Source: Nitrospirae bacterium MYbinv3
GTDB lineage: Bacteria; Nitrospirota; Thermodesulfovibrionia; Thermodesulfovibrionales; Magnetobacteriaceae
Direction: 5' to 3'
NCBI GenBank assembly: GCA_002753395.1
Contig: PEAB01000027.1
Span: forward strand, 1 to 40,054
DNA: 40,054 nt
The number at the start of each line of letters is the position of its first letter. Position 1 is the first letter of the stretch. A program made the position numbers and the translations under genes. Below the pieces are notes generated by a model. It made no database searches and was not told the DNA's origin. It worked only from the letters and a program-made list of their open reading frames with translations. Positions 7,158 through 9,267 of this stretch are shown piece by piece.

Positions 7158-7551
7158 GGTGCATAAGAACCACCATGACCTTACGGACACAACAAGCAAT
7201 GAAAGTCCTTGATTATGTAGGTTATTTTTAGACTTTCATATAAAAGTCATGGGAGTTTAATGGGGTCAAGAGGGCAGGCCCCCTTGGGGGGGGCTGAGGG
7301 GTAATGCTGTTGACTTAAGCATTAATATGTATGCACATGGGCGATATTTTAAGCAGCCACTCCTGACATTTACAGGGTCAAGGGAACAAGCTCCCTTGTG
7401 GGAGAGTCTAAGGGAGGGCAAAGCCCTCCTTTTTTCATCTTCACAACCTTAAGTCAACAACATTAGATCTGAGAGGAGGGGTTGCGAACCCCTGCGACAG
7501 TGGGCAGAGCCTCTCCTTCTTTGACAAAACCCACGACTTTCTTATGCGCCC
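7158..7551. mobile_element. Composite miniature element (family 1 carrying family 2)
   Basis: The left end GGTGCATAAGAAC and right end CTTATGCGCCC are inverted family-1 ends. The 10-bp direct repeat AGTTGCTTGG lies on both sides (7149-7158 and 7552-7561, sharing one base with the element end), consistent with a 9-10 bp target duplication. Inside are an 83-bp block (7161-7244) also found inverted at 25490-25572, a family-2 element (7302-7465), and GC-rich hairpins including GGGGTTGCGAACCCC. No protein is encoded. Confidence 0.75.
7302..7465. mobile_element. Nested miniature element, family 2
   Basis: The ends TAATGCTGTTGACTTAAG and CTTAAGTCAACAACATTA differ by one base. The flanks GGGCTGAGGGG and GATCTGAGAGG look like decayed copies of an 11-bp duplication with consensus GGTCTGAGGGG, the same site used by the copy at 34363. 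Confidence 0.75.
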
Positions 7552-7920: not shown

Positions 7921-8667
7921 TCATTTACTTGTATAGACGTCTGCAACCTCTGTATTTTCGTTCTTAGTTCTTTCGTTTCTGCTGGTTCTGAGGATACTTG
8001 ATTCTCTAAAACCTGCTCTTAAAAACTCGTCAAGAAAGGCACCGCCTTTCACAGCACCGGCGATTCAGGCAATCCAGTTCTTTATATCGCATACAGCCGT
8101 AGACTTTGCTGTCTCCTTCAGGATGATCTCGGAGGCGTAAACGGTACCGCCAGGGCGTAGGATGCGATACATCTCCTTAAAGATGGCTTCACGATTTGGG
8201 TTGAGGTTAAAGATACCATTTGCCAGGACAACGTCTGCGCTGCTGTCATTTAGTTCTATTTGGTCTACACCGCCCTGGTGAAACTGAACGTTTCCAACTC
8301 CGGTCTCTTGAGCTGCCATTACAGCACAGTCAACCATATCACTGCTAAAGTCGATGCCTATAACCTTTCCATTTACTCCTGTCTTAAGTGCCGCAATTAT
8401 AGTATCAAGACCAGCCCCGCATCCAACATCGACAACAACTGCCCCCTCAGGGATATCGGCAAACACAGATACATTAGAGACCCCAGCAAAAGAATCCAAT
8501 GCCCTCTTTGAAATCTTATCAAGCAACTCAGCGCTGTAACCAACGCTTTCAGCAAACGCCCTTCCTACAGGAAACGGATGCTTGTCTCTTGGGTTTACTG
8601 CAACGTTAGAGTACGCTTCACTAACCATCTTTTGCAAGTCACCGGCGTCATATCCTTTCTGTGACAT
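7921..8667 (-). CDS. Arsenic-methyltransferase-like SAM methyltransferase, probable selenoprotein (Sec201)
   Basis: The start at 8667 is fixed by AAGGAGG six bases upstream. The fold is a class I SAM methyltransferase: VVVDVGCGAGLDTII binds SAM near residue 75, IGIDFSSDMVD is the acidic loop, and VVLANGIFNLNP then YRILRPGGTVYASEI follow. The first frame ends at TGA 8065-8067 just after DIKNWIA, too early for the family. Reading TGA as selenocysteine continues for 47 codons with IAGAVKGGAFLDEFLRAGF and a basic RNERTK end, exactly what the family has after its conserved Cys (pattern W..C(I/L)(A/G)GA). In ArsM that Cys binds arsenic. The stem-loop at 8034-8050 fits a bacterial SECIS. The total is about 248 residues with Sec at 201. 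The divergent ArsR-type gene supports a metalloid role. It could alternatively be a nonsense mutation, but the intact tail argues against that. Confidence 0.8.
8034..8050 (-). promoter_or_regulatory. Candidate bacterial SECIS hairpin
   Basis: On the mRNA strand GAAAGGC-GGT-GCCTTTC forms a perfect 7-bp stem with a GGU loop. The loop begins 22 bases after the TGA. Bacterial SECIS elements sit immediately 3' of the UGA inside the coding region with a G/U-bearing apical loop about 16-37 bases away, as in E. coli fdhF, so position and loop agree. Confidence 0.65.
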
Positions 8668-8706
8668 AATGATCCTCCTTTTAAACATACATAGAAACTA
8701 TAATAA

Positions 8707-8886
8707 GGGTGGATAAGAATATCATGGGTTTTAGAAATAGAAGGGAGGGCTTTGCCTACTGTCGCAGGGGTTCGCAACCCCCTCCCTCAGACCCACCCAC
8801 AAGGGAAGGGGTGAGGCACCCCGGCCACAAAGAAGTCCTCTTGACCCCGTAAAAAATCTTCGTATCCGTGAATTTCTAATGCACCC
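8707..8886. mobile_element. Miniature element, family 1, between the methyltransferase and arsR-like genes
   Basis: The left end GGGTGGATAAGAATATCATGGG and right end GAATTTCTAATGCACCC are inverted family-1 ends. The heptamer ATAATAA flanks both sides (8700-8706 and 8888-8894). The interior holds the hairpins GGGGTTCGCAACCCC and AGGGGTGAGGCACCCC. It separates the two divergent genes and may have displaced a shared control region. Confidence 0.65.
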
Positions 8887-8946
8887 GATAATAAAATATT
8901 ATACAAACATTTATGTAAAATAGTTTAAAATTGTCATTACTGAAAA

Positions 8947-9267
8947 ATGAAGACTATAGAACAGAAGATAGAGCTGTTAAGGGTAATAGCTAATCCTGTG
9001 AGGATTAAAATTCTTATGGAACTTGGTAGTGGTATCAGGTGTGCAGGTGATTTTTTGAAGTTACTCGACCTAAGCCAGCCTAATATTTCACAGCACCTCT
9101 CTGTGCTTAGAAACCATAAGATCGTTGATTATTACATGGATCATAAACAGAGGTGCTATTTTGTAACTGAACCTATGGTCTCTGAGGTTATTGAATTACT
9201 CAATAAAGACTTCCCGGAAACAACTCCAAGGCCAGGATTGTGTGAGATCCACAGCAATTCTCAATGA
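8947..9267 (+). CDS. ArsR/SmtB-family transcriptional regulator
   Basis: 106 residues forming a winged helix: IELLRVIANPVRIKILMEL, then FLKLLDLSQPNISQHLSVLR (recognition helix) and a wing IVDYYMDHKQRCYFV. Members repress metal- or metalloid-resistance genes and release DNA on binding the inducer. The usual CxC on helix 3 is reduced to a single Cys (GIRCAGDF), with further Cys in the wing and near the C-terminus (GLC), so the inducer site differs from the classical arsenite site. It is divergent from the methyltransferase gene, the likely target. The last six codons lie inside a miniature element; before its insertion the protein ended CEIQE-stop. No clear Shine-Dalgarno is present. Confidence 0.85.
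   Translation: MKTIEQKIELLRVIANPVRIKILMELGSGIRCAGDFLKLLDLSQPNISQHLSVLRNHKIVDYYMDHKQRCYFVTEPMVSEVIELLNKDFPETTPRPGLCEIHSNSQ

Follow-up and report, generated by a model that had tools for sequence, protein, structure and literature searches.

A standalone branch of predicted ArsM-fold methyltransferases that always carries selenocysteine and lacks the other two ArsM thiols

What does an ArsM-like gene encode when its reading frame is broken by an in-frame stop codon, and does its product deserve the name of an arsenic enzyme? The question was raised by a 40,054-nucleotide stretch of DNA from Nitrospirae bacterium MYbinv3, which belongs to a magnetotactic family of Nitrospirota (contig PEAB01000027.1, positions 1 to 40,054), here called the window, which comes from a genome of 3.7 Mb that is 96.6% complete. 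A SAM methyltransferase frame at 8667-7921 is interrupted by a TGA at 8067-8065 and then continues for 47 more codons; the interruption and its continuation had been described in a first-pass annotation that gave no strand, and both were found on the minus strand. The gene starts at ATG 8667, which has GGAGGA before it and is preceded by the letters AAAAGGAGGATCATT. With the internal UGA read as selenocysteine (Sec), the product has 248 residues and Sec at position 201, counting from this ATG (counting from 8688, the Sec is residue 208). The terminal UGA (7923-7921, minus strand) was assigned as an ordinary stop, and TAA, TAG or TGA ends relatives at the same place. A second Sec at this terminal codon was rejected, since the sequence past it showed no conservation and relatives have TAA or TAG there, and genome-wide UGA recoding was rejected because the ArsR, LivH and NuoF-like genes of the window end in TGA. 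The methyltransferase gene is flanked by G/C-rich stretches that resemble each other (7262-7520 and 8736-8850; for example, CTGTCGCAGGGGTTCGCAACCCC and its reverse) and look like dispersed repeats. Upstream in the window, at 644-1365 and 1937-2575, lie a Gp49-like/HTH_37 pair resembling a toxin-antitoxin module and an IS1595-type transposase.

Our analyses revealed that the same codon is TGA in 66/66 members of a clade that includes the window gene, a few near-identical rows of which are second hits on a species already present. The clade forms one side of a branch with an SH-aLRT value of 100 and spans about ten phyla. Its members were collected with the patterns [AV]NGIFNLN and [VL][ED][SC]F[AT]GVSN, which spare the Sec codon and therefore do not bias the TGA count, and no Cys version was found among the 66 clade rows. 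In the sister groups and other relatives the position carries Cys codons (TGC or TGT), and the remaining groups of the tree contain both TGA and Cys codons, the tree as a whole having four changes. A chance mutation thus does not account for the TGA, since all clade members share the codon and relatives have TGC or TGT there. The codon is likewise TGA in four family relatives with 47 to 55% identity and in about 20 ArsM-like genes of the same order that are more distantly related. In L029 and L039 it is TGC. Candidatus Magnetobacteriaceae are among the named relatives closest to the window gene. An alignment-based search of named genomes yielded 64 loci in Acidobacteriota, Chloroflexota, Nitrospirota, Planctomycetota, Methylomirabilota, Myxococcota and others, while a scan for close relatives in genome contigs with a single protein gave no match and none were found in viral contigs.

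The machinery for Sec decoding is present in the source genome. Specifically, searches recovered tRNA-Sec (75.5 bits, with which ARAGORN concurs), SelA (597.6 bits), SelB (378.8 bits) and SelD (315.8 bits). The selD gene (G000:C114:6874-7818) has its own in-frame TGA, and SelD is itself probably a selenoprotein. Among the 39 genomes searched via the loci of relatives, 34 contain tRNA-Sec, and the other five may be incomplete metagenome bins. The window gene also harbors the bacterial SECIS-like hairpin that had been noted from the letters, GAAAGGC-GGU-GCCUUUC, at 8050-8034 on the minus strand, with a stem of 7 bp, a GGU loop and its first base 14 nt past the UGA. When the window gene alone was compared with synonymous recoding, the hairpin was marginal and not significant (P about 0.06-0.12). 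Across 59 clade genes, however, the folding energy relative to synonymous recoding gave z values averaging about −1.0 to −1.2 in windows that start 1 to 4 codons past the TGA and −0.4 to 0 in all others, the null being drawn from each gene's own codon usage. The mean stem score for 59 to 62 clade members was 6.97, compared to 5.15 in the null, and scores of at least 7 were reached by 68% of the clade genes and 18% of the null. These comparisons, in which relatedness among the sequences is left uncorrected, argue clearly for selection on the downstream hairpin across the clade, at the SECIS site only. Purifying selection on the frame after the TGA is indicated by a median dN/dS of about 0.2 over the codons that follow it (44, close pairs). 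None of the three conditions that the first-pass annotation named as refuting a selenoprotein holds, as the genome encodes the Sec machinery, close relatives share the TGA and homologues have a Cys at this position. Judged in silico, the window gene is a genuine bacterial selenoprotein gene.

The predicted product has an ArsM-type SAM methyltransferase fold. Its AlphaFold2 model has a mean pLDDT of 91, the Sec loop being among the least certain parts, and its best structural matches are ArsM enzymes. The structures of CmArsM, CrArsM and human AS3MT (4fr0, 4fsd, 5evj and 8xt7) share this fold at 22 to 29% identity over the aligned part, and VIA-align superimposed the model on CrArsM with a Z of 24.3 and an rmsd of 2.2 over 200 residues. 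These enzymes differ from the window protein at the metal site, where Sec replaces one Cys and two other As-site cysteines are missing. In the alignment to CmArsM, Sec201 corresponds to Cys224, in agreement with the proposal that Sec occupies an arsenic-binding Cys position, while Gly151 corresponds to Cys174 and Val63 to Cys72. Hence the As(III) site retains just one of its three cysteine positions, that of Cys224, and there the residue is Sec. All 66 clade rows have at the Cys174 equivalent a Gly that the search pattern [AV]NGIFNLN itself fixes, and nearly all have Val at the Cys72 equivalent; in canonical NC-type relatives both positions are Cys in 21/21. CmArsM structures have a multi-thiol As(III) site, which is beyond the reach of a single selenolate. 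Because a lone selenolate cannot rebuild such a site, the protein does not merit the name arsenite methyltransferase, a label that should be regarded as unproven for the clade. The arsenic function implied by the first reading of the locus thus found no support, since the other two coordinating thiols are gone clade-wide and the protein falls short of the NF008823 arsenite methyltransferase profile (167.1 bits against a cut-off of 263). Small exogenous thiols could fill in for the missing As-site ligands.

The first-pass annotation had also proposed a new selenoprotein, but as a class it is known. A Sec-containing arsenite methyltransferase with the motif UxxG is tabulated in PMC13188914 as experimentally verified, citing Fomenko 2007; PMC5029168 counts 41 such proteins in 39 bacteria, and the inventory PMC9312934 lists the family as well. 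The window protein shares with the Sec arsenite methyltransferases (PRK11873/NF008823) the fold, the Sec position (UIxG) and an exchange of Cys and Sec among relatives. It departs from them at the two other thiols, as the equivalents of Cys72 and Cys174 are both Cys in canonical members (NCVINL), whereas the clade has Val and Gly (NGIFNLNP). Three related fusion selenoprotein families in NCBIfam, NF041537 (ArsM/AhpD), NF041536 (ArsM/DUF2284) and NF047649 (methyltransferase/UXPK-star), given as reference 64 of PMC13188914, contain the methyltransferase domains that score best with the window protein. Only the methyltransferase part matches, leaving the protein far below the fusion cut-offs (192.5/510, 171.8/575 and 158.7/460, respectively). 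These families carry a second Sec-bearing domain, whereas the window gene is standalone and without the Cys of FCGVGN. Nitrospirota relatives matching NF041537 have NG instead of NC and Sec at the same position, as in the clade. What is new is therefore not the Sec ArsM class but a standalone, always-Sec branch of it, devoid of the other two ArsM thiols and below the specific NCBIfam cut-offs checked, for which no description was found among the open-licence papers searched.

The neighborhood of the gene was examined as well. The divergent ArsR-type gene reported at the outset is real: it encodes an ArsR/SmtB-type regulator at 8947-9267 on the plus strand (NF033788, 59.4 bits, above the cut-off of 55). 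Homologues adjoin the methyltransferase orthologues of two other Nitrospirota genomes, G002 (54%) and G363 (45%), so that this arrangement occurs in three Nitrospirota genomes with that of the window included. The regulator does not contain an ELCVCDLC-type As(III) site, having IRCAGDF at that place, and other ArsR site types are possible. In the intergenic region (8668-8946) a weak inverted repeat, TATTATACA...TGTAAAATA, begins at 8897 and is a possible ArsR operator; in the source genome the divergent repressor probably controls the methyltransferase gene. In other phyla the neighbors differ. A putative selenate ABC binding protein (TIGR04553, cut-off 250) lies 107 bp from the gene in L108 (345.6 bits) and 360 bp from it in L087 (332.1 bits), and two sub-threshold relatives of it flank the gene in L061, these three loci representing Chloroflexota, Methylomirabilota and Acidobacteriota. 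A match to such a protein (E of 1e-45) was found in only 5/46 clade-bearing records, two of which are apparently one species with the protein on another contig, and it is adjacent to the methyltransferase in three of the four species that have it. Most clade loci have other neighbors, and in the window no selenate-type transporter stands next to the gene. In eight Acidobacteriota loci (L058, L066, L079, L088, L091, L098, L102 and L105) a PF01048 phosphorylase-superfamily gene is the immediate neighbor, on one side or the other; the one such protein checked was below all NCBIfam equivalog cut-offs, and this neighbor points clearly to neither selenium nor arsenic. In two Chloroflexota loci (L054 and L108), the region upstream of the Sec methyltransferase encodes a radical SAM protein similar to the Rv1681 family.

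Several explanations of the gene were weighed against these data. That it is a pseudogene or a sequencing error, with the TGA as a nonsense change, has nothing to recommend it beyond the stop itself and is refuted by the conservation of both the TGA and the frame that follows it, so that its probability is negligible. The Sec might instead serve as a redox residue rather than as an element ligand, for example by forming a selenenylsulfide with Cys193 in an enzyme that methylates an organic target. Indeed, a Cys lies eight residues before the Sec in 9/9 Nitrospirota clade rows, but its equivalent is missing from clade members outside this phylum, and therefore a selenenylsulfide is not the general mechanism. 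We consider this redox role improbable, and Cys193 was rejected as a general second ligand on account of the same confinement to Nitrospirota.

The two remaining explanations place an element on the Sec. On the first, the enzyme would be an arsenite methyltransferase of the ordinary kind, with Sec substituted for one As-binding Cys; arsenite would be bound by the Sec together with glutathione or other small thiols, and its methylation would proceed as it does in ArsM. The ArsM enzymes as closest solved structures, the divergent ArsR-type gene and the published Sec-ArsM family all agree with such a function, but the clade-wide absence of two of the three As(III)-site cysteines, the low NF008823 score and the ArsR protein without the arsenite motif speak against it, and we judge it unlikely. 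Alternatively, the lone selenolate would carry a selenium atom as a perselenide, or reduce a selenium oxyanion, for methylation by SAM, with a role in selenium detoxification or uptake balance. A chalcogen atom, in contrast to As(III), could presumably be held by just one ligand, and the adjoining putative selenate-type transporters in three phyla are consistent with this chemistry. However, the transporter is PhnD-like and of hypothetical specificity, its name "selenate transporter" being a hypothesis of curators, and the adjacency is seen in just 3 of about 60 loci. Selenium methylation is thus a tentative reading, well short of even odds. A more far-reaching proposal, that the clade is a separate, strictly Sec-requiring family of selenium or chalcogen methyltransferases that hold the substrate atom on a single selenolate and, in several phyla, have a putative selenium-oxyanion ABC transporter as a partner, is doubtful.

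Taken as a whole, the data are best explained by an always-Sec branch of the ArsM fold in which a lone selenolate holds a soft element for methylation, a reading to which we assign a probability of roughly 0.6. In this lone-selenolate model, SelB with Sec-tRNA would decode the UGA at 8067-8065 as selenocysteine, helped by the hairpin just downstream, to yield the predicted SAM-dependent methyltransferase of ArsM fold. Sec201 would be the sole position of the three in the ArsM metal site that still bears a thiol or selenol. The selenolate would hold one soft-element atom, with selenium and arsenic species as the likeliest candidates, through a single Se-element bond beside the SAM methyl, which would then move to the held atom, small thiols supplying further ligands if needed. 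Sec decoding, family, fold and loss of the other thiols are in silico results, and from them and the gene neighborhoods we infer the substrate, the chemistry and the regulation.

Standard gene callers cut the protein at the UGA, and the family is therefore likely to be misannotated. The branch also calls for caution in environmental surveys of arsM, in which such genes should not be counted as arsenic methylation genes. With about ten phyla, other metal thiols lost and an exchange of Sec for Cys never seen, the clade is a natural experiment on the capabilities of a lone selenolate in methyl transfer.
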